This document shows, one piece after another, positions 1,058 through 15,031 of a stretch of 64,000 nucleotides of DNA (position 1 is the first letter of the stretch; every line of letters starts with the position of its first letter). The notes beneath the pieces are model-generated. The model saw only the letters and a list, made by a program, of their open reading frames with translations, did not search any database and had not been told where the DNA came from. This DNA comes from Fibrobacter succinogenes (lineage in GTDB: Bacteria > Fibrobacterota > Fibrobacteria > Fibrobacterales > Fibrobacteraceae): the NCBI GenBank assembly GCA_902776765.1, contig CACYRP010000002.1, forward strand, positions 1 to 64,000, read 5' to 3'. Both the position numbers and the translations under genes were made by a program.

Positions 1058-1902
1058 ACCGAGAAAGAGACTGCACAAAGCCCGCGTCTGGCGCCACTAA
1101 CGCCAAAGTTCATGGCGTTGCCCGTGTGATTTCTAAGCGCGGTTTTTGCAGCAGAAGCCAAGCAGAAAACCTGGTCCGCGAGGGCCGGGTTTCTTTGCGT
1201 GGTAAAATCGTCCGCGACCCGGAAACTCCCGCCCGCGAAAACGACGAAATTTGCATTGACAGAAAGCCTATAAAAGCAAGCGAGTTCGTTTACTTTATGA
1301 TGAACAAGCCCCGCGGTTACGTAACCACGGCAAACGACGAGAAAGGGCGCGCAACCGTCATGGACCTTTTCCGCGAAGAGTACGCCAAGATGTTCCCCGG
1401 CAAGCCTGTACCGCACATTTCGCCCGTGGGCAGGCTCGACGCCGCCAGCGAAGGACTGTTATTGTTCACCAATGACACCAAGTGGGCAGACACTTTATTA
1501 AAGACGAAAGATGCGATTCGCAGTAAGGTCACTGAGCACGCGGAAGTACCCCGAATCGGAAATGAACCTCTCGCATATCCCCACACCAAAATCTACCGCG
1601 TGCAGGTGGGGGGCCACCCCACTGCCGACGACCTCGCGAAAATGGAGAAAGGCTTTTTCGTCTCGCCCCGCGTCTTTGGCGAAAAAGAAGAATTCATGCA
1701 CGCCGTGCGCGCCGTTTTCCACCGCGAAAGCGAAAAGAACTGTTGGCTCGAAATTACTTTAGACGAAGGCAAAAACCGCGAAATCCGTCGCATGCTAGCA
1801 CACCTCGGCTACGAAGTCTTGCGCCTTGTCCGCATCAAGTTTTGCAGTTATGAATTAGGCGATTTAAAGCAAGGCGAAATCAAAGAATTTCACCTAAAAT
1901 AA
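1021..1902 (+). CDS. RsuA/RluB-family pseudouridine synthase
   Basis: Pseudouridine synthase that isomerises a uridine in rRNA. An S4 RNA-binding domain comes first (RVISKRGFCSRSQAENL, about residues 36-52), then the catalytic domain with the Asp-containing motif GRLDAASEGLLLF, and finally the family's NREIRRMLAHLGYEVLRLVRI segment. The only in-frame ATG lies 37 bases inside the hisC 3' end; a GTG at 1126 would cut into the S4 domain, so the overlapping ATG is preferred, although no good ribosome site is visible. The subfamily (RluB, RluE, RluF or RsuA) cannot be settled by eye; the S4 domain argues against RluE. Confidence 0.85.
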   Translation: MPRKHQGISRQVNRERDCTKPASGATNAKVHGVARVISKRGFCSRSQAENLVREGRVSLRGKIVRDPETPARENDEICIDRKPIKASEFVYFMMNKPRGYVTTANDEKGRATVMDLFREEYAKMFPGKPVPHISPVGRLDAASEGLLLFTNDTKWADTLLKTKDAIRSKVTEHAEVPRIGNEPLAYPHTKIYRVQVGGHPTADDLAKMEKGFFVSPRVFGEKEEFMHAVRAVFHRESEKNCWLEITLDEGKNREIRRMLAHLGYEVLRLVRIKFCSYELGDLKQGEIKEFHLK

Positions 1903-2071
1903 AAAAAAACGAATAGTACTCCATTTTCTCAGCGCATGCATTTGCAAAAGAATTTCAAAAATATTTCAACTATAAAATAAATTTATTAGCAGCTATAAAT
2001 ATTTAAAATACGGCCACCACAGCAATTATTACTTATAAATTAAATCTATAATTCACGATATTAATTAAGTA

Positions 2072-2101
2072 TTGGACAAAGCTATAACTGCGTTCTATAT
2101 T
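2072..2101 (+). promoter_or_regulatory. Candidate sigma-70-like promoter for the metY cluster
   Basis: TTGGAC at 2072-2077 and TATATT at 2096-2101 are separated by 18 bases, about 30 bases upstream of the metY start. The whole stretch 1903-2130 is AT-rich with no gene. I looked for SAM-riboswitch-like stem patterns here and saw none. Seen by eye only. Confidence 0.4.
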
Positions 2102-2130
2102 TTCGTCAAAAAAAACATTGAGGCTTTTTG

Positions 2131-3483
2131 ATGACGAAGATAACGAAAACTCCTTCTAAAAAGAAAATCGAAACAGCGAATATTTTTGATTCAAGCACCT
2201 GGAATTTTGGAACAAAGTGTTTACAAGCTGGTTGGAAGCCCAAGATTGGCGAGCCGCGCGTGCTCCCCATTTTTCAATCCACCACATACAAATACGAAGA
2301 CGTTGACGAAGTCGAAAGACTTTTTGCATTAAAGCAATCGGGTAACAAATACACACGCACAGGAAACCCGACTGTCGCCGCATTCGAAAGCAAGATTACA
2401 GAGCTCGAAGGCGGCGTAGGCGCAGTCGCTACGGCATCTGGACAATCCGCAGTACTCTTGGCAATTTCAAACCTTGTAAAAGCGGGAGACCACGTTGTAG
2501 CGAGCAAACACATTTACGGCGGCAGCTACACATTGCTTAGCGTAAGGCTTGCAAAACTCGGCATCGAAACCACATTCATCAATCCCGAAGATTCTATCTC
2601 GGAGCTCCGCAAAGCATTCCGCCCGAACACCAAAGTTCTTTTCGGCGAAACCATCGGAAACCCCGCCCTGGGCGTTCTAGATTTCGAAAAATTCTCGAAA
2701 CTCGCTAAAGAATTTGACGTACCATTTTTAGTTGACAACACTCTCGCCACGCCATTTCTCGTAAAGCCTTTGCAGCACGGCGCCAACATCGTCATTCATT
2801 CCGCAACAAAATACATTGACGGTCACGCTGTAGCCCTTGGCGGCGTTGTCATTGACGGCGGCAATTACAATTGGGAAAACGGAAAATTCCCGGATCTCGT
2901 AGAGCCCGATGCGCAATACGCAAACACTTCTTATACACAAAAATTCGGCCGAGCCGCCTTTATCGCAAAAGCAAGAGCCCAATACTTGCGCGATTTCGGA
3001 GCCTGTTCAAGCCCATTCAACGCATTTCTCTTGAATCTCGGTCTCGAAACACTCCATTTGCGCATGCCGCAACACAGCAGTAACGCATTGGCCTTAGCAG
3101 AATTCCTTTCCAAAAATCCGGCCGTCAACTGGGTCAACTATCCTGGACTCAAATCTAGCCCGAATTTCAAGCGCATTCGCAAATACTTCGATTACCAAGG
3201 TGGAAGTGGAGTTCTGACGTTCGGTCTCAAGGGCGGCAAAGCCGCCATCCGCTCATTTGTCAAAGCATTGAAAGTCGCTGCTCTCGTTGTGCACGTGGGC
3301 GATGCCCGTACAAGCGTTCTGCATCCGGCAACAAGTACGCATTCGCAGCTTTCCCCTAAAGACAGGCTTGCCGCAGGCATCCCGGACGATATGATTCGTG
3401 TTTCCGTTGGCATCGAAGACCCACGCGACATCATTGCTGATTTCGAACAAGCTATTAACGCAAGTGTAAAAGGCGGTAAATAA
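2131..3483 (+). CDS. metY: O-acetylhomoserine sulfhydrylase (Cys/Met metabolism PLP enzyme)
   Basis: Cys/Met-metabolism PLP enzyme, most likely using O-acetylhomoserine with sulfide or methanethiol to give homocysteine or methionine. Recognisable parts are QSTTYKYED, YTRTGNPT, the glycine-rich ATASGQSA cofactor loop, the LVDNTLATPF aspartate motif, the SATKYIDGH lysine (about Lys227) and the C-terminal RVSVGIEDPRDIIADFEQA. At 450 residues with an insert around GNYNWENGKFPDLVEP it fits MetY better than the ~390-residue MetB/MetC type. ATG at 2131 is chosen over TTG at 2128 because TTGAGG lies at the right distance. It is followed immediately (stop at 3481-3483, next start at 3484) by a methyltransferase, so the two are probably co-translated. 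Confidence 0.85.
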   Translation: MTKITKTPSKKKIETANIFDSSTWNFGTKCLQAGWKPKIGEPRVLPIFQSTTYKYEDVDEVERLFALKQSGNKYTRTGNPTVAAFESKITELEGGVGAVATASGQSAVLLAISNLVKAGDHVVASKHIYGGSYTLLSVRLAKLGIETTFINPEDSISELRKAFRPNTKVLFGETIGNPALGVLDFEKFSKLAKEFDVPFLVDNTLATPFLVKPLQHGANIVIHSATKYIDGHAVALGGVVIDGGNYNWENGKFPDLVEPDAQYANTSYTQKFGRAAFIAKARAQYLRDFGACSSPFNAFLLNLGLETLHLRMPQHSSNALALAEFLSKNPAVNWVNYPGLKSSPNFKRIRKYFDYQGGSGVLTFGLKGGKAAIRSFVKALKVAALVVHVGDARTSVLHPATSTHSQLSPKDRLAAGIPDDMIRVSVGIEDPRDIIADFEQAINASVKGGK

Positions 3484-4443
3484 TTGAGTATCATCGTTGA
3501 TGTAAAAAAATACTTAGGCCTTGATAGCGCACCCAAACGCATTAAAGAATACCTGTCCATCGAAGTCGCTGACCACGCTTATCTGCCCAAAGTAGAAGAC
3601 ATCAAAAGCGATTGGGTTGCTTATATTGCAGCCCCCGCCTTCAAGCTGATTCGCGAAAAAACAGGTAACAACATTGAAGCGTTCGCCTCAATCGGAACGG
3701 GTTCCGGCATTGATGTATTGACAGGAATTGAGCTTCTAGGCGCAAAGCGAGTCGGTTTCACCGATTTGCAAAAGAGCGTTGTTACCACAGCCGCACAGAA
3801 CGTCAGAAACAACATAAAAGATTTTAAATCCATTGAATTCGAATTCGGCGATGGAGATCTTTTGCAACCGATTCAACACGGCAAGCGAAAATACGATGTC
3901 ATTTACGAAAACCTTCCCAATGTTCCGCTAGCAAGCAATACAAAGATCGAAGACAACAGAAACAGTGGACATTATCTCGAAAAAAGAGAAGAACCAATTC
4001 CGCAATTTGTACATGAGCAGATGCTTGATTTGCACTATCTCGCACTCAAGCAAGCCCGAGAATACCTGGCAGATAAAGGAGCCGTCTATTCAACGCTCGG
4101 GGGCCGCGTACCATTGAGCGCATTCATCAAGCTTGGTGAATTGTCTGGGCTCTCTTCCGAAATTTTCACATATTCATGGAAAGTGCAAGCCGAGCCCAAA
4201 GACGTTATTTCAGGTTACGCCGCCCAAGAAGAAGCTGGGCTTGGGCCATTCCACTTTTACCGGGCCAAAGATTTGCAAAAAGCCTTCGCCTCTGTACAAG
4301 TCCATGAATCCGGCAGCCACGCCTTTGAAATCGAAAAGAGCCTCGAACAATCAAAACTTACAGCCTCCGAAGCATACGAAGCATTCAAGCAAGGTGAAAT
4401 CATAGGCCATACAGTCGCAGTTCTAAAGTCTAGTTTAAGATAA
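3484..4443 (+). CDS. SAM-dependent methyltransferase resembling the methionine S-methyltransferase N-domain
   Basis: Class I Rossmann-fold methyltransferase. Motif I is SIGTGSGID (about residues 69-77), an acidic residue follows in GFTDLQ (94), and the substrate loop reads YENLPN (141-146) where N6/glutamine methyltransferases have NPPY. The downstream pattern (GAVYSTLGGRVP, then a strand EIFTYSWKVQAE and a terminal FHFY) resembles, from memory, the methyltransferase domain of plant methionine S-methyltransferase (MMT), which also has a degenerate IPQ-type motif. It starts with TTG directly after the metY stop and is followed after 7 bases by a DMSP-lyase-like cupin. Substrate is inferred from context: methionine or another thioether is plausible, but a PrmC/HemK-like role cannot be excluded. 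Confidence 0.6.
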   Translation: MSIIVDVKKYLGLDSAPKRIKEYLSIEVADHAYLPKVEDIKSDWVAYIAAPAFKLIREKTGNNIEAFASIGTGSGIDVLTGIELLGAKRVGFTDLQKSVVTTAAQNVRNNIKDFKSIEFEFGDGDLLQPIQHGKRKYDVIYENLPNVPLASNTKIEDNRNSGHYLEKREEPIPQFVHEQMLDLHYLALKQAREYLADKGAVYSTLGGRVPLSAFIKLGELSGLSSEIFTYSWKVQAEPKDVISGYAAQEEAGLGPFHFYRAKDLQKAFASVQVHESGSHAFEIEKSLEQSKLTASEAYEAFKQGEIIGHTVAVLKSSLR

Positions 4444-4450
4444 GGCATTC

Positions 4451-5053
4451 ATGAAAAACGTTATCTACAATTTAATTGAAGAATCTCAAAAGTTTCTTTT
4501 CAAACGTGCAAAAATAGACGATAAAATCGGCCTAGAAGCAGCCAAATTTGCCGTTCGCGACATTCCCAAACTCAGTGGCAAATTCGAGAAAAGCAATTCG
4601 CCTTTAATCCGCTGGATCAAAGAAGCTGTCAAGCATGGCAGCCCCGAAACAAAGGACTTGCTAAACGCTTTGGAGCCAGCACTCCCCTACCTGCCATGGA
4701 AATACAATTACGAGCCGCGCCCCGACATGCCTGATTTAGGCAATCAAATGGGATGGGGCGAAATTCTCGGCCCAGAAGCCCCGTATCACGATGAACACTT
4801 TTGCTTCGGATTCACGCTTCTCGGGAAAAACACATTTTACCCTTCGCATTTGCACCCCGCCACAGAACTGTATGTCGTTCTTTCAGGGCATGCTATCTGG
4901 ACATTAGACGGGCACTCCAAAATAAATGGTCCTGGTGAATTTATATTGCATCCATCAGACCACATCCATTCCATGCAAACCGAAAACGAGCCCATGCTTG
5001 CGCTTTACACCTGGAGCGGAAAAGACGTAAAAACGCTTTCGAAATACGTGTAA
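4451..5053 (+). CDS. Cupin protein of the DMSP lyase-like family
   Basis: A 200-residue protein with a helical N-terminal half (residues 1-90, ending LPYLPWKYNY) and a C-terminal cupin barrel. The metal-site signature is HLHPATELY (His133, His135, Glu139, Tyr141) with a second motif HPSDHIHSM (His173), followed by LALYTWSG. This layout (LPW.Y, then HxHxxxExY, then a late His and a YxW strand) is that of cupin DMSP lyases such as DddL/DddQ, in which the motif Tyr acts as base. It is third in a metY - methyltransferase - cupin cluster, so a lyase acting on a methylsulfonium compound (DMSP or S-methylmethionine) is a reasonable inference. The substrate is not shown by sequence; a sugar isomerase-like cupin is the alternative. 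Confidence 0.65.
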   Translation: MKNVIYNLIEESQKFLFKRAKIDDKIGLEAAKFAVRDIPKLSGKFEKSNSPLIRWIKEAVKHGSPETKDLLNALEPALPYLPWKYNYEPRPDMPDLGNQMGWGEILGPEAPYHDEHFCFGFTLLGKNTFYPSHLHPATELYVVLSGHAIWTLDGHSKINGPGEFILHPSDHIHSMQTENEPMLALYTWSGKDVKTLSKYV

Positions 5054-5058
5054 TAATT

Positions 5059-5338
5059 TTATTTTTCAAGTCGTTTATTGACATGGGCCTCAACTACATT
5101 CACAATGTAGTCACCCATTTTTTCGCAATCGTCGATGACATCCAGCCGATACCTGATTCAGATAATTTGCAATTTCAACTTCAAAGCTATCGCTAGCGGT
5201 TTCATACTTTTCAATATGTTCAAAGAGCTTGTCAAAATTCTCCTCTTTCTGAGCCTTGAGAAGTTCTGGTACCAGGCGAAACATTTTCTGAATTTTTTCA
5301 ACAAACAAATCAATTTCTTTGCGGGCTTCGAATAGCGA
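5059..5338 (-). pseudogene. Remnant of a Na/Pi-cotransporter PhoU-like domain, frameshifted
   Basis: On the minus strand, FEARKEIDLFVEKIQKM and the helices after it as far as EVEIANYLNQ look like the PhoU-like C-terminal domain of Na/Pi cotransporters. Just after NYLNQ the frame is lost, but the next frame continues the same fold (RLDVIDDCEKMGDYI) to a TAA at 5059-5061. The loop normally joining these helices is missing, so a small internal deletion plus frameshift is likely. Nothing resembling the transporter's membrane part remains upstream, where nadK begins. It is convergent with the cupin gene, whose stop lies 5 bases away. Confidence 0.6.
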
Positions 5339-5372
5339 AATAAACCAAATAAGAAACATCACGTTTACCAAA

Positions 5373-6257
5373 TCAAGCCGATCTCGGTTTTCCCGTCCAG
5401 CCCAGTTTTTCGCGAAGAGCGCCCACAAAACCTGTATGGCGCATGCGAATGAAAGTCGTCACAAGCTTACTTTCAGAAAGCATCACATATTCGTCCGATT
5501 TCATTTCGAGCGTAATGCGACCATCAAAAACGAGGTCGAGCGAACAATTCACCGCCGATGCTAAACGCAATTTTTTATCCGTGAGCGAAAGCACCAGCGG
5601 ACGCACCGAAAGACTGCTCGGCGCCACAGGCGTTAGCACCACCGCAGGCGTCGAAGGGTGGATAATCGGGCCTCCAGCCGCTAAGTTGTACGCAGTCGAA
5701 CCTGTCGGCGTCGAAACGAGAATCGAATCCGCCCAGTATTCCGTAAGGCACGTATCATTATAAGCGACATTCACGTTCACCATGCGTTCGGGAGCACGTG
5801 CACGTACGTGGACTTCATTCAGCACCGTTTGCTTTGCTATGCACTTTTTTCCGTGATAAACAGCAGCTTCAATCATCATGCGTTCACGCGTCGAAAAATC
5901 ACCTGCAATCAAGCTATCGAGCGTCTTGGTCAAGCCTTCCACGCGCGATTCCGCCAAGAAACCGACACGGCCCGCATTCACGCCGAGAATCGGGATGTTG
6001 TGGCCAAGCGCCATATGCGCTGCCGTAAGCACCGTGCCGTCGCCGCCAACAGCAATCAGCAAATCGGTCTTCTGCAACGCAGATTCTTTCACCACGCGAA
6101 TTGGCTTTTTCACGAGTTCCTTCAAGGAATCGAGAGCGTAAAACTTTACCTGCGGATGTTCGAGCGCCCAAGCAGAAATCTGCTTCAAGGCACAAGCCAA
6201 ATCGGCACTTTTGTCCTTAAACCCGACAATCCCAATGTTGCTGAAAGACTTATTCAT
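5373..6257 (-). CDS. nadK: NAD kinase
   Basis: Phosphorylates NAD to NADP in the cytoplasm. The family signatures are all present: GGDGTVL near residue 70, GVNAGRVGFLAE, the LNEVHV segment with the conserved Asn-Glu, and STPTGSTAYNLAAGGPI. About 294 residues, the usual length. ATG at 6257 is preferred because GAGGG sits just upstream; the earlier in-frame codon at 6269 is a TTG within that ribosome site. The gene stands alone, between the decayed transporter fragment and the aromatic amino acid operon on the same strand (about 60 bases from the latter). Confidence 0.95.
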   Translation of the reverse strand: MNKSFSNIGIVGFKDKSADLACALKQISAWALEHPQVKFYALDSLKELVKKPIRVVKESALQKTDLLIAVGGDGTVLTAAHMALGHNIPILGVNAGRVGFLAESRVEGLTKTLDSLIAGDFSTRERMMIEAAVYHGKKCIAKQTVLNEVHVRARAPERMVNVNVAYNDTCLTEYWADSILVSTPTGSTAYNLAAGGPIIHPSTPAVVLTPVAPSSLSVRPLVLSLTDKKLRLASAVNCSLDLVFDGRITLEMKSDEYVMLSESKLVTTFIRMRHTGFVGALREKLGWTGKPRSA

Positions 6258-6318
6258 TTTCACCCTCAAGTTTCGCGTTCGTTCAATGCGTAGCCTTTAT
6301 ACCTTCCGCGCACAATCC

Positions 6319-7698
6319 CTAGCCCGCTTTTTCAGCGTTCTTCTCGGCGTGTTCAGCAACAAGCACGTTCTTTAATTTCTCATATACGCCCGGGAACACA
6401 GCTTCAATCTTATCCATATTCTCAACCGGTTCATCGTTCTGCAACGCAAGCGAAAGTACGCTCAAGGCAAGCCCCATCTGTGCCGATTCCCCTGCATCAA
6501 AATCACTACCGTTCACAATCGTTTCCAAACCGCGAATGACAAGGCCATCGTCATACACACCCACTTCGGCACCCGTCTTGCGCAAGTTCACCGCCAACAC
6601 TTCATTCTTCGGGCGCATTTCAACACGCACTTCTTTAGGCACGCGCAAAATCGTTTCGCCTTCGGCGTAGCAAGCCGCCACCGCCAACAGCGGGTATTCT
6701 TCGAGCGCAGTCGCAATCACGTCTTCGCTAAAGCGGCGGCCCTGCAAACGCTTTCCAGAGGCAAGCGGCTTGATTTCCACATCGCCAAAAACATCACCGT
6801 ACTTTTCTCGACGGCTCACCGTTTCCACATTCGCGCCCATGCGCTTGAGACATGTGAGCGCCCCCGCGCGGCTGCTGTTCAAATCGACATTCAAAAGCTT
6901 GATGACGTTGTCCTTGGGCATATTGCCAACCGTCGCCAAGACTGCAAAAGCAGTCGCTTCTGTGGTATCGCCCGGCACATAGTATTCACGCGCCGTGATC
7001 ACCTTCGTCTCCGAAAGTTCCGTAAATTGCGTACGTTCAATCTTCTTGCCCTGCGCAATCATCAAGCGGCGTTCAAATTCGCTCAGCTGTTCCATGCCGC
7101 GGCCCTCGTACTTTACCGCCGCGCCAAAGTAAATGAGCATTTTGGTCCACTGGTCATGAACCGTAGACTTTTCTTCGAAGTTCAAATATTCATTACGGAT
7201 AAGCGCACGGAGCAAAAGTCTGTTGCGCATCACAGAAGAAACATTCCCCAGCGAATCTTTCTTGACATTCAGTTCATCGCGCAAAAAATTAAAGACAAAC
7301 TTTGCAGGTTCATCTTTTTGCACCTTAATCTTGAAATACTTCTGGACAGTTTCCTTTGCGTTATTCACGCGGGCAATTCCCGCATCGTCCACTTCGGCAG
7401 CAAACGTATAAAGTTGTTCATCGTCCTTGCTCGCAAGCGTCCAAAGCATTACATTATCAGCTTCGTTAAACTTAATCGGGAGCATCGTCGGCACAGGATA
7501 CTGAAACCCCTTGCCATTGAGCACCAGCTGGTGCCCTTGCAATTCGTAAGACAACCCAAAATCCTTAAGAGCCTCGGCATATTTTTCACTGCCACTCGCC
7601 CACGCGAAATCTTCCAGCACGGTGCGGCCATTCACAAGGAGCGCCATCACCAGTGTCAAATTCATCCGTTCTCGGTCGGGGTTCATCAAGAATTCCAT
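6319..7698 (-). CDS. EPSP synthase-fold protein with altered active-site motifs
   Basis: A 459-residue protein that aligns by eye with 3-phosphoshikimate 1-carboxyvinyltransferase: PDRERMNLTLVMALLVNG occupies the place of the N-terminal PGDKS..R motif, GDTTEATAFAVLA matches GDISSAAFFL, and EYPLLAVAACYAEGETIL matches the late DAP.LAVAA..AEGET motif. It ends one gene after tyrA and two after chorismate mutase, which supports a place in aromatic synthesis. However the Lys and Ser of GDKS, the nearby Arg, the PEP-binding GNAGT.MR motif and the late RVKESDR motif are all changed or not visible. It may be a very divergent AroA or a non-catalytic paralogue. The AAGGAA site before ATG 7698 supports the start. 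Confidence 0.6.
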   Translation of the reverse strand: MEFLMNPDRERMNLTLVMALLVNGRTVLEDFAWASGSEKYAEALKDFGLSYELQGHQLVLNGKGFQYPVPTMLPIKFNEADNVMLWTLASKDDEQLYTFAAEVDDAGIARVNNAKETVQKYFKIKVQKDEPAKFVFNFLRDELNVKKDSLGNVSSVMRNRLLLRALIRNEYLNFEEKSTVHDQWTKMLIYFGAAVKYEGRGMEQLSEFERRLMIAQGKKIERTQFTELSETKVITAREYYVPGDTTEATAFAVLATVGNMPKDNVIKLLNVDLNSSRAGALTCLKRMGANVETVSRREKYGDVFGDVEIKPLASGKRLQGRRFSEDVIATALEEYPLLAVAACYAEGETILRVPKEVRVEMRPKNEVLAVNLRKTGAEVGVYDDGLVIRGLETIVNGSDFDAGESAQMGLALSVLSLALQNDEPVENMDKIEAVFPGVYEKLKNVLVAEHAEKNAEKAG

Positions 7699-7728
7699 CG
7701 TCTTTTCCTTAAATTCCTTATTTATAAA

Positions 7729-8946
7729 TTAACGTCTTTCTTTAACTTCGTATTCCAAATACTGCAAAGTCTTAACTGCGCGTGCGGCTTCTTCTTCGGT
7801 CTTGAACGCAAGCAAGAGCGTTCCCGCCACGTTTTCGCGAACCTTCATGAGTTCGATATCGCGAATGTTAACGCCTTCTTCGGCCAGCGGCTGCATCACG
7901 CTCAAAAGCGCGCCCGGTTTATCCTTGAGCTGCACCGTAATTTCGTAGAACGAGGCGGTGTTGTTGCGGCCAGGGGCAAACAAGCTCGCACGGCCATCGT
8001 TACCCGCCTTGAAAATATCCGCAAGCGCCTGCGAATTATCTGCCACCACACTCTGTTCATCATTTTCAAAATTGCCCGAAGCCGGTTTGCCGTTCTTCAC
8101 AACGTTGAGTCCAATCATCGCCGCAATCGTCTTGTCGAGCCCATCACGAAGTTCGCAAAGAGCACGCGTCGTCTCGTCGCGATTGGTCACTGCAATATCG
8201 TGCCACATTCCCCAACCCGAAGCAGCAATACGTGTCATATCGCGGAAAGCACGCCCCGCAAAATGCTGGTAGTTGTGCGAAAGCAAACGCTCCGGCAAAT
8301 TCCCAGCCAGCGTCGAACTCAGCATCTGCGGCATGTGACTCACCCACGCCATCGTGCGGTCGTGATGTTCCGGCGGAAACACCACTGGATTTGCACCCAC
8401 AAAATGAATCAACTCCAACAGCGGAGCATAAACCGATTCTTCCGTACCTTCGGGCGGACAAACAAACCAATACGCATTTTCAAAAATCGCAGGATCGTTG
8501 TATTCGCAAGTGCGTTTCTCGGAACCCGCCATCGGGTGGCTACCGACAAAGCGGAACGGACGCGGCAAACGCATCCCCGCCTTGCAAATTTCAACCTTCG
8601 TCGAACCGATATCGCTCACCAGGATTTCTCGACCTGCGGCGACTTCAGAAGCAGCCCACGAAACACGGCCCAGCGCATCAATCATCTTTAGAATGTGGAT
8701 AATCGGAGCACAGAGCAAAATCAAGTCGCTACCTTTCGCCCACTTTTCAGTTTCATCATACTCGAAAAATTCATCGGCAAGTTCAAGCTCACGAGCGCGC
8801 TTAAGCGTCGCAAGCGAACTCACCGCACGGATAACCGTCGGGAGTTTAGCCTGTTTGATTGCGGCGGCAACGGAACTTGCGAGCAGGCCAAAGCCCACCA
8901 TAGTAATGCGGCGAAAAGAAAGTCGCCCACTAAAACCATCAGCCAT
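7729..8946 (-). CDS. tyrA: Prephenate dehydrogenase with C-terminal ACT domain
   Basis: NAD(P)-dependent oxidative decarboxylation of prephenate to 4-hydroxyphenylpyruvate for tyrosine. A Rossmann start (ITMVGFGLLASSVAAAI), the SDIGSTK motif, the catalytic-site GSHPMAGSE motif and HHDRTMAWVSHMPQ are clear. Residues about 330-405 form an ACT domain (YEITVQLKDKPGALLSVMQPL), which in this family binds the end-product amino acid, so feedback control by tyrosine is likely. Its start codon overlaps the stop of the chorismate mutase gene (TAATG), pointing to translational coupling. Confidence 0.93.
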   Translation of the reverse strand: MADGFSGRLSFRRITMVGFGLLASSVAAAIKQAKLPTVIRAVSSLATLKRARELELADEFFEYDETEKWAKGSDLILLCAPIIHILKMIDALGRVSWAASEVAAGREILVSDIGSTKVEICKAGMRLPRPFRFVGSHPMAGSEKRTCEYNDPAIFENAYWFVCPPEGTEESVYAPLLELIHFVGANPVVFPPEHHDRTMAWVSHMPQMLSSTLAGNLPERLLSHNYQHFAGRAFRDMTRIAASGWGMWHDIAVTNRDETTRALCELRDGLDKTIAAMIGLNVVKNGKPASGNFENDEQSVVADNSQALADIFKAGNDGRASLFAPGRNNTASFYEITVQLKDKPGALLSVMQPLAEEGVNIRDIELMKVRENVAGTLLLAFKTEEEAARAVKTLQYLEYEVKERR

Positions 8947-13011: not shown

Positions 13012-14142
13012 TCACAACAACACGTCTTTCAATATCCCGACAATTCGATTTTCAAAAGACGGCAGCGTGTATTCGGACTTGAACTTTTTATAGCCGTTTT
13101 CGCCGTACTGGATCCGCAAATTTTTATCAAGCAAAAGCTTTTCTAGGGCTGTAGCCAAAGATTCCGCATTATTGCGTTCGCAAATCAAGCCGTTTTCGCC
13201 ATTTACAACCACATCAGGAATTCCACCTTCATTTGTCGAAACGACAGGAAGCTTATATTCCATTGCTTCTAAATTAACCAAACCGAAAGTTTCGTTATGG
13301 TAAAACGTCGGGAATGCAAAAATATCGGCGTTTTCAAAATAGGGTGTTTTTTCGGAGCCGTACTTGCGCCCCGCATAAAACGCATACCCATCCAACCCAC
13401 GATTTTTCACTTCTTCATCAAAACGCGCCGCATTCAGTTCATCAGTTTCGCCACCGACAAAATCACAAGTAAAGCGAACCGACCGATCCTTCAAAATTTT
13501 CAACGCATCGAGAAGGACAATCACCCCTTTCGAAACAATCAAGTTCGACAGAAATAAAATCTTGGGGTTTTCATTATGACGTTCAGCAACGGGTTCTTCC
13601 TGTAACGATTCCGGAATTCCATTGGGGCAGACAAATACATTCTCTTTCGCCACGTACTTCTTTACATCTTCGTAAAGAACATTCGCCAAAAGAATAACCT
13701 TGAGCCCTTTAAAGAACTTTTTATACAGGATATTGTCCAGGAACTTGCCTTGCCGACTAGCAACACCCTTGTTGTGGTAATGAACGACAATCCGAGCATT
13801 CGGGGAATATTTCTTTAGACAACGCTTGATATACAGAACGACAACAAAATCCTTATAGAATGCGCCGCCCGCAGCATTGGGGGTAATGTAAACTAGGTCT
13901 GGCAGGAATTCTTTTATTGCTTTCTTAAAACGCTTTAGTTGGGACAACAGATTGAAAATTTTCTTGACGCCGCCCTTGCCAATGTCATCAAGATTTTTGG
14001 CAAGCATCATATTTTCAAAACGACAGTCAAAAGAATCATTCACGATTTTAGAATCATGAATATACTTGCCGACCATCGCCGCCCCGTGAACCGGAGGCGG
14101 CATGTGCATAATGAAGAGGACTTTGGGTTTAGAATTTGGCAT
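13012..14142 (-). CDS. GT4-family glycosyltransferase
   Basis: GT-B fold retaining glycosyltransferase of 376 residues. The N-terminal half starts VLFIMHMPPPVHGAAMVG, and the nucleotide-sugar-binding half has ILFLSNLIVSKGVIVLLDAL and the classic E-rich motif FAFPTFYHNETFGLVNLEAMEYKLPVV with GGIPDVV after it. Probably adds one sugar of the polysaccharide repeat at the inner face of the membrane. Its start overlaps the end of the phosphotransferase gene upstream by 14 bases. Donor and acceptor are unknown. Confidence 0.88.
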   Translation of the reverse strand: MPNSKPKVLFIMHMPPPVHGAAMVGKYIHDSKIVNDSFDCRFENMMLAKNLDDIGKGGVKKIFNLLSQLKRFKKAIKEFLPDLVYITPNAAGGAFYKDFVVVLYIKRCLKKYSPNARIVVHYHNKGVASRQGKFLDNILYKKFFKGLKVILLANVLYEDVKKYVAKENVFVCPNGIPESLQEEPVAERHNENPKILFLSNLIVSKGVIVLLDALKILKDRSVRFTCDFVGGETDELNAARFDEEVKNRGLDGYAFYAGRKYGSEKTPYFENADIFAFPTFYHNETFGLVNLEAMEYKLPVVSTNEGGIPDVVVNGENGLICERNNAESLATALEKLLLDKNLRIQYGENGYKKFKSEYTLPSFENRIVGILKDVLL

Positions 14143-15031
14143 CCAAAATCTCCTTGTACCTTACAAGCATATAAGCATCCTGTTTTCTTGTAAATTCCTC
14201 AATTTTCAACAAAGCAAAATCTTTGAGATACGGTTCCCAGTCATTAACACCGGCTGATTCAAAATAAGAATCAATCAAAGTTCTATTTTTCTGCATTACA
14301 TTTTCAAAAGATTCTTCTCGACGAATCAAAAATGCAGTCTGGAAAATATACGTGAAAAGATCATGCCCTAAAGCTCTTTCTCCCGCCATTTCCCAGTCAA
14401 TGACTTTAAGACGTCCATCGATCTCTAGCATATTCCACGGGCAAAAGTCCCCATGCGAAAAACACGTTTTCAAACAATTCGCATTCAGACTATCGTCATA
14501 ATGATAGGCCCGGAGAGTTTCAAGAATTTGGAGAATTTCTTCATCAGAAATTTGCCCATGAACATGATTTCCATCAACACATTCCGTTTTCAAAAAAACA
14601 TAATCATCTGTAATTTTACAATCAAATAGCTTTGGCACTAATCCCGAATCAGCCAACTTTTGAAACACAAAAATCTCGTTGGAACTAAGCTTTTTAGCAT
14701 TTTCCTTTTGGGAGAGTTTTGCAAAGAAATGCAACCCCGCCCCATCATAACCCAAGATACTTTTCTTTTGATCCGAGCTAGGCGTTCCATAGTTAATGCC
14801 GAAAACAGATTCAGTCCCCAAAAGAGACTGCAACAAACCAAAGTCTTGCACAGAAGACGACTCAACCCTATTAAGATAGCGCACCAACGAACAATGCAGA
14901 AAAAGCCACCAATACAGCTTGGCAACAACGCCACCATAATTCCCGTACAACGAATAGATAAACCGACTTTTCTTTGTCAGTTTAGGGAAAAAGTAGCTTG
15001 TCGTTTTTGTCTTGAATCTATAAAGGGTCAT
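14129..15031 (-). CDS. APH/choline-kinase-like phosphotransferase
   Basis: 300-residue protein with the kinase motifs FSHGDFCPWNML (catalytic HGD..xxN loop) and LKVIDWEMAG (DFG-equivalent Asp), as in aminoglycoside phosphotransferase and choline/ethanolamine kinase families. In a polysaccharide locus it more likely phosphorylates a sugar or a small polar substituent than an antibiotic; this is inference. It overlaps both neighbours (4 bases with the gene upstream), so it belongs to the same transcript. The N-terminal ~100 residues are poorly conserved with anything I recognise and carry aromatic-rich segments. Confidence 0.7.
   Translation of the reverse strand: MTLYRFKTKTTSYFFPKLTKKSRFIYSLYGNYGGVVAKLYWWLFLHCSLVRYLNRVESSSVQDFGLLQSLLGTESVFGINYGTPSSDQKKSILGYDGAGLHFFAKLSQKENAKKLSSNEIFVFQKLADSGLVPKLFDCKITDDYVFLKTECVDGNHVHGQISDEEILQILETLRAYHYDDSLNANCLKTCFSHGDFCPWNMLEIDGRLKVIDWEMAGERALGHDLFTYIFQTAFLIRREESFENVMQKNRTLIDSYFESAGVNDWEPYLKDFALLKIEEFTRKQDAYMLVRYKEILDAKF

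Follow-up and report, generated by a model that had tools for sequence, protein, structure and literature searches.

The gene metY and the two genes that follow it, for a SAM-dependent methyltransferase (MT) and a DddQ-type cupin, are almost always inherited together and point to an undescribed small-molecule sulfur pathway in some Fibrobacter strains. We analysed a window of 64,000 nucleotides from Fibrobacter succinogenes (positions 1 to 64,000 of contig CACYRP010000002.1) together with related genomes; its closest relatives that bear a name are Fibrobacter genomes. The co-inheritance of MT, cupin and MetY is the strongest new result, and the trio is a real, selected module that combines a clear DddQ-class cupin with a new MmtN-related branch of methyltransferases, its predicted chemistry being plausible. 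If this holds, DMSP-lyase-type chemistry and an MmtN-type methyltransferase would be joined in rumen and gut Fibrobacter as a unit inherited together, with a bearing on the origin of rumen dimethyl sulfide (DMS) and on the function of many non-marine DMSP_lyase members. A sequence-only reading of this DNA had called such a pathway unexpected in a fibre-degrading gut bacterium, and the host bears this out. Among the titles and abstracts searched, which included few subscription journals, we found no paper relevantly linking Fibrobacter with DMSP or DMS metabolism and no report of DMSP-lyase-type chemistry or an MmtN-type methyltransferase in rumen or gut Fibrobacter. As the three proteins are small, the prediction is directly testable.

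Layout, selection and co-inheritance of the three genes

The three tightly packed genes noticed in the sequence-only reading were confirmed as open reading frames within 2131-5053, all on the plus strand (Table 1). TTG is the start codon of MT in 9/33 homologues and ATG in the others. An Rfam search of positions 1500-6500 returned 0 RNAs, and a SAM riboswitch or other RNA 5' of the cluster was rejected, being absent from the window and from five related loci. Median dN/dS values of 0.07 for MT, 0.07 for the cupin and 0.03 for metY, with no internal stops, reveal strong purifying selection on all three genes. Homologues that are 92-98% identical are found with the order unchanged in a second Fibrobacter genome, which together with these low dN/dS values (~0.03-0.07) argues against a chance assembly. 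Beyond the cluster, positions 5056-5428 on the minus strand look like a PhoU-like remnant with a frameshift, adjoining the end of an NAD kinase gene; reading the ORF at 5111-5428 together with the frame that ends in DVIDDCEKMGDYIVNVVEAHVNKRLEK would give a single protein across two frames.

Table 1. Features of the window at the metY-MT-cupin cluster.
Feature	Position	Strand	Remarks
A+T-rich intergenic stretch upstream of metY	1903-2127	.	presumed promoter region, from sequence
metY	2131-3483	+	ATG at 2131; in-frame TTG at 2128
SAM-dependent methyltransferase (MT), 319 aa	3484-4443	+	TTG start abutting metY stop
DddQ-type cupin, DMSP_lyase family, 200 aa	4451-5053	+	ATG start

Of 168 Fibrobacterota genomes, 32 have a true MT homologue, 30 belonging to the window's genus and 2 to a sister genus; five further genomes matched solely through short PrmC-like stretches and are left out of this count. 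The same 32/168 genomes carry the PF16867 cupin, which also gave a weak match in one distant genome, and MT and cupin genes are adjacent in 32/32, 10-30 bp apart. An orthologue of MetY (at least 88%) is present in 29/30 MT carriers of the window's genus and in two genomes of the sister genus, one of which has no MT; it accompanies MT and cupin in 30/32 genomes and occurs in one other genome among 111 of the family. It is contiguous with MT-cupin in 16 genomes, lies 2.5-4.1 kb off in 12, past an SsuA-like binding protein and metK, and is found 40 kb off in one genome and on another contig in one. The linkage proposed earlier is thereby upheld by a co-occurrence stronger than the window alone could have revealed (32/32 for MT-cupin, 30/32 for MetY); as to gene order, that of MT and cupin was kept in 32/32 genomes and contiguity of metY in 16 alone.

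Mapped onto an rpoB tree that covers 50 genomes, the presence pattern requires at least 6 changes, compared with an average of 16 for shuffled labels, indicating that the trait for the most part runs in clades and was gained or lost independently in some cases; MetY follows most of the MT-cupin presence changes. Near-identical MT genes at L030, L086 and L088 (genomes G015, G150 and G138) occur in genomes that stand apart by rpoB, and these isolated cases could be recent transfers or metagenome-bin contamination. At L071 of G159 (5948-8384), MT is interrupted by an ISL3-like transposase gene and lacks its linked metY, beside an intact cupin gene; judged by its sequence, this copy of the module is decaying. 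No MT homologue was found on plasmids or in viruses. One GTDB-wide pattern scan located MT outside Fibrobacter in a single Marinobacter MAG, and a search of 392 genomes of Marinobacter's order gave no further homologue.

Two kinds of neighbourhood surround the trio in Fibrobacter. The neighbours in lineage A can be a sulfate ABC transporter, a LysE protein nearest to a cysteine/O-acetylserine exporter, and bioB; those in lineage B are an SsuA-like binding protein, metK and MoeB/ThiF, with a rhodanese/DsrE2 protein a few genes on (for the sulfate transporter and metK, the names come from the sequences rather than from a family scan). In Marinobacter, a LysR-like gene lies upstream of the MT homologue, and downstream come a cysteine-synthase/CBS-like gene and a gene for an EamA-type transporter; that genome has no PF16867 cupin. 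What these settings share is an MT next to a PLP enzyme of the sulfhydrylase type, together with amino-acid export. At the lineage B loci L022, L026, L027, L070, L079-L081, L084, L085 and L088, metY is flanked by genes for a LolD/FtsX-type ABC transporter and an SsuA-like lipoprotein; metK is divergent, and the match of the binding protein to SaoX is weak. The minus strand of L027 encodes, at 13890-14897 near the module, a 335-aa protein that combines rhodanese and DsrE2-like domains with weak similarity to TusA, perhaps a sulfur-relay fusion.

A DddQ-class cupin and an accessory sulfhydrylase

The HxHxxxExY...H signature of DMSP lyases, from which the cupin had been assigned at first, is present, and a search against the Pfam DMSP_lyase family (PF16867) gave 88.1 bits for a cut-off of 27 (7e-25); the cupins from all 32 carrier genomes exceed this cut-off. 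Among structures in the PDB, the protein is closest to DddQ (1e-16, ~30% identity). Catalysis by DddQ depends on Y120, H123, H125, E129, Y131 and H163 (PMC4437653). These six active-site residues align with Y130, H133, H135, E139, Y141 and H173 of the cupin, all invariant in 35/35 sequences, as is W188. By these sequence features, the cupin belongs to the DddQ class of the DMSP_lyase family with its catalytic residues intact, and a metal-dependent, lyase-type chemistry is plausibly predicted. It shares the family score and the six residues with DddQ of Ruegeria (PDB 4la2, 5jso), a metal-dependent enzyme that splits DMSP into DMS and acrylate, and differs from it in its ~30% identity, its non-marine anaerobic host and its constant pairing with a methyltransferase. 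Most of the DddQ residues also recur in PF16867 proteins from soil bacteria, where the gene neighbourhoods are not related to sulfur; the signature therefore points to lyase-type chemistry rather than to a particular substrate. Since the cupin's AlphaFold model is poor (pLDDT 49.6), its fold search served as supporting evidence alone and the sequence decided. Fibrobacter is strictly anaerobic, which makes a lyase a better fit for the cupin than a dioxygenase. A role as MTXu-5P methylsulfurylase was also considered; no such structure was among the matches listed.

The assignment of MetY as a sulfhydrylase likewise stood, with 555 bits against TIGR01326 (O-acetylhomoserine sulfhydrylase; cut-off 495) and 1e-122 against PF01053. 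Its nearest solved structure is 8sf5, an OAH/OAS sulfhydrylase (2.7e-132), and its close solved structures also include FUB7, a MetY relative producing a non-protein amino acid. Since the genome encodes further MetY paralogues (38-53% identity, one of them beside cysK), the copy in the window, referred to as MetY*, classifies by sequence as an extra, accessory O-acetylhomoserine/O-acetylserine sulfhydrylase, a PLP enzyme. With MetY O-acetylhomoserine sulfhydrylases it has in common a full-length match above the TIGR01326 cut-off; what sets it apart is that it tracks MT and cupin and is not universal in the genus. Another MetY-like paralogue (genome G000, contig C20, 26677-27918; L050) has one in-frame TGA and may be a pseudogene or an assembly error.

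The methyltransferase: nearest MmtN by fold, nearest PrmC by plain sequence

MT had been likened to the plant methionine S-methyltransferase (MMT) on account of its YENLPN loop and C-terminal strand pattern, both of which are found in the protein. Fibrobacter PrmC shows NLPY at the same place, so the YENLPN loop by itself is no argument for MMT rather than PrmC. MT reached the cut-off of no Pfam or NCBIfam model, the weak matches being mainly PrmC/PrmA types; TIGR03534 (PrmC) gave 28 bits for a cut-off of 199, and the motif is NLPN rather than of the NPPY type. The full-length sequence score puts MT nearer PrmC than MmtN, and hhalign paired it with Fibrobacter PrmC at 94%, over the SAM domain; it is in the N-terminal half that MT resembles PrmC/HemK. 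PrmC/PrmA are thus the best families by plain sequence, all below cut-off, which counts in part against the proposed likeness to MMT.

The comparison of folds had a different outcome. We searched the PDB by Foldseek with an AlphaFold model of MT built from five sequences (pLDDT 67.8, more confident in the core, poor at the N-terminus and in the 147-176 loop). All nine MmtN chains took ranks 1-9 (E 8e-14 to 3e-12, whole-chain alignments), the next match followed at 6e-10 and no PrmC appeared in the top 50. With hhalign, MT matched MmtN at 66% (169 columns, 25% identity) and plant MMT weakly, at 11%, a result to which we give no weight. In shuffle tests over the C-terminal half, the Marinobacter homologue scored z 6.3 against MmtN and z 1.0 against PrmC, a match to the former alone; for the C-terminal half of the window's MT alone, the score against MmtN was not significant (z 0.9). 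The MmtN letters in these comparisons are the target letters of PDB alignments whose queries were a plant fragment and chimeric probes; the probe tails, partly invented, carry no evidence, and target letters alone were used. The best evidence, that of the modelled fold included, places MT in the wider MmtN/MMT-like fold group as a separate, distant branch and not as an MmtN. What survives of the proposed resemblance is therefore a real, distant relation to MmtN/MMT, visible in the fold, in hhalign and in the C-terminal shuffle test; the loop is undiagnostic.

All 34/34 MT homologues have GxGxG and an acidic residue after strand 2. G71, G73, G75 and D94 of MT match the GxGxG and Asp69 of MmtN, and Leu102 is also retained. 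Cys121 and Arg132 occur in all MmtN enzymes (PMC9135737). At these two positions, which in MmtN serve SAM and methionine, MT has Asn143 in place of Cys121 and Lys154 in place of Arg132 (Ala in the Marinobacter homologue), which makes it a separate branch rather than an MmtN; Glu127 is replaced by Leu149, and the acceptor is probably not methionine itself. Glu250 of MmtN aligns with the invariant Glu282 of MT across a gapped region; position 257 (His/Arg), considered as its counterpart, was ruled out by the full alignment. The MmtN trimer latch loop bearing Tyr160 and Pro169 is deleted in MT, and the Pro169/Arg183 phosphate pocket was not found.

In sum of likenesses, MT shares with MmtN (PDB 7VVV/7VVW/7VVX), its best fold match among solved structures, the GxGxG, Asp69, Leu102 and loop proline positions and a collinear C-terminal pattern; it differs in its ~19% identity in the fold alignment, an extra N-terminal stretch of ~25 residues and an extra C-terminal segment. 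With the N-terminal domain of plant MMT it has collinear C-terminal motifs, seen in the weak hhalign match, at very low identity and without an aminotransferase domain. The PrmC/HemK release-factor methylases resemble it in the SAM-binding half and the NLP loop; its C-terminal half is unrelated to theirs by the shuffle test, and its score is far under the PrmC cut-off.

A candidate sulfur module and its alternatives

We tentatively favour, as a possibility short of an even chance, a functional sulfur module in which MT methylates a small sulfur metabolite and the cupin carries out a beta-elimination. What the data establish is family, residues and co-inheritance; substrate and direction are predicted. 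MetY*, or a cysteine/homocysteine pool fed by it, would supply a thiol or thioether amino acid, and MT would methylate a small sulfur metabolite, with sulfur as the likeliest acceptor atom. In the metal-dependent cupin, whose metal would bind the carboxylate, a tyrosine base would then abstract the adjacent proton, and the beta group would be expelled. That group may be dimethylsulfonium (from S-methylated S-methylcysteine or a DMSP-like acid), released as DMS together with an unsaturated acid, either dehydroalanine (giving pyruvate and ammonia) or acrylate. The module might dispose of or convert excess methyl groups and reduced sulfur, or make a small sulfur compound. In favour of it are the co-occurrence even where MetY is separated, the presence changes on the rpoB tree that MetY mostly follows, the MT-cupin adjacency, the DddQ residues, the sulfur-gene neighbours, the genes beside the Marinobacter MT and the anaerobic life of Fibrobacter, which suits a lyase. 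Against it are the absence from MT of Cys121, Glu127 and Arg132, the NLPN loop like that of amide/amine methylases, the soil PF16867 relatives, the Marinobacter MT without a cupin and the failure to find AcuI. Given the missing MmtN residues, the NLPN loop and the full-length score nearer PrmC, MT may instead methylate nitrogen or some other atom.

The fully specified version, in which an MmtN-fold branch builds a beta-sulfonium carboxylate, the DddQ-type cupin cleaves it to DMS and a dedicated sulfhydrylase supplies the thioether, giving this anaerobic gut fibre degrader a self-contained route of S-methylation and C-S cleavage outside marine DMSP metabolism, is doubtful. Cupin DMSP lyases abstract a proton from the alpha position, upon which the sulfonium leaves from beta (PMC4437653). 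The sulfur of S-methylmethionine is at gamma, and this compound would thus not be a natural substrate of a DddQ-type cupin; a beta-sulfonium carboxylate (S-methylated S-methylcysteine or a DMSP analogue) would fit the cupin better. The route suggested from the sequence, in which methionine becomes S-methylmethionine and the cupin then releases DMS from it, is accordingly unsupported as written, in view of the gamma sulfonium and the replacement of Cys121, Arg132 and Glu127 in MT; the general idea of methylation followed by C-S cleavage stays.

A serious alternative, likewise short of probable, is a small non-protein amino-acid pathway without a sulfonium, in which MetY* would make a gamma-substituted amino acid, MT would methylate it on N, O or S, the cupin would eliminate or isomerise, and the product would be exported. 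It would account for the N-methylase-like NLPN loop, the replaced methionine-site residues, FUB7 among the close solved structures of MetY and the exporter-like genes beside PLP enzymes (LysE in lineage A, EamA in Marinobacter); against these stand the complete DMSP-lyase active site of the cupin, the sulfur-centred neighbourhoods of both Fibrobacter lineages and an MT fold nearest to a sulfur methylase.

It is improbable that MT makes S-methylmethionine from methionine, with DMS freed by the cupin, or on MetY* when sulfide replaces it at the gamma position. MT does have its nearest fold in MmtN and an invariant Glu282 aligned with Glu250, and metK adjoins it in lineage B; set against this, Cys121, Glu127 and Arg132 are replaced, the first and last of which occur in all MmtN (PMC9135737), and a gamma sulfonium is unsuited to DddQ-type beta-elimination. 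In the genome, ~93% complete, so that absences of genes are not final, we found no stand-alone homocysteine S-methyltransferase, which argues against an S-methylmethionine cycle; the one PF02574 match lies in a 1198-aa ORF consistent with MetH. Nor was an AcuI/YhdH acryloyl-CoA reductase found there.

The last absence bears on a further, quite improbable reading, the use of imported DMSP or a similar plant or dietary sulfonium, which the cupin would cleave and whose sulfur MetY* would fix, MT having a side role. Some plants produce DMSP, the cupin is closest to DddQ, and SsuA-like and sulfate transporters lie nearby; this reading leaves the strict cupin-MT linkage unexplained, has no AcuI/YhdH for the acrylate, and needs a route from DMS to sulfide, of which none is known in an anaerobe with these genes. 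Finally, it is very unlikely that MT is a PrmC-like macromolecule methylase sitting by chance beside sulfur genes: the PrmC/PrmA family matches and the 94% hhalign result over the SAM domain are outweighed by the nine MmtN chains that top the fold search without a PrmC in the top 50, by the C-terminal half of the Marinobacter homologue (z 6.3 with MmtN, 1.0 with PrmC; 0.9 with MmtN for the window's MT), and by the patchy presence of MT, tied to that of the cupin.
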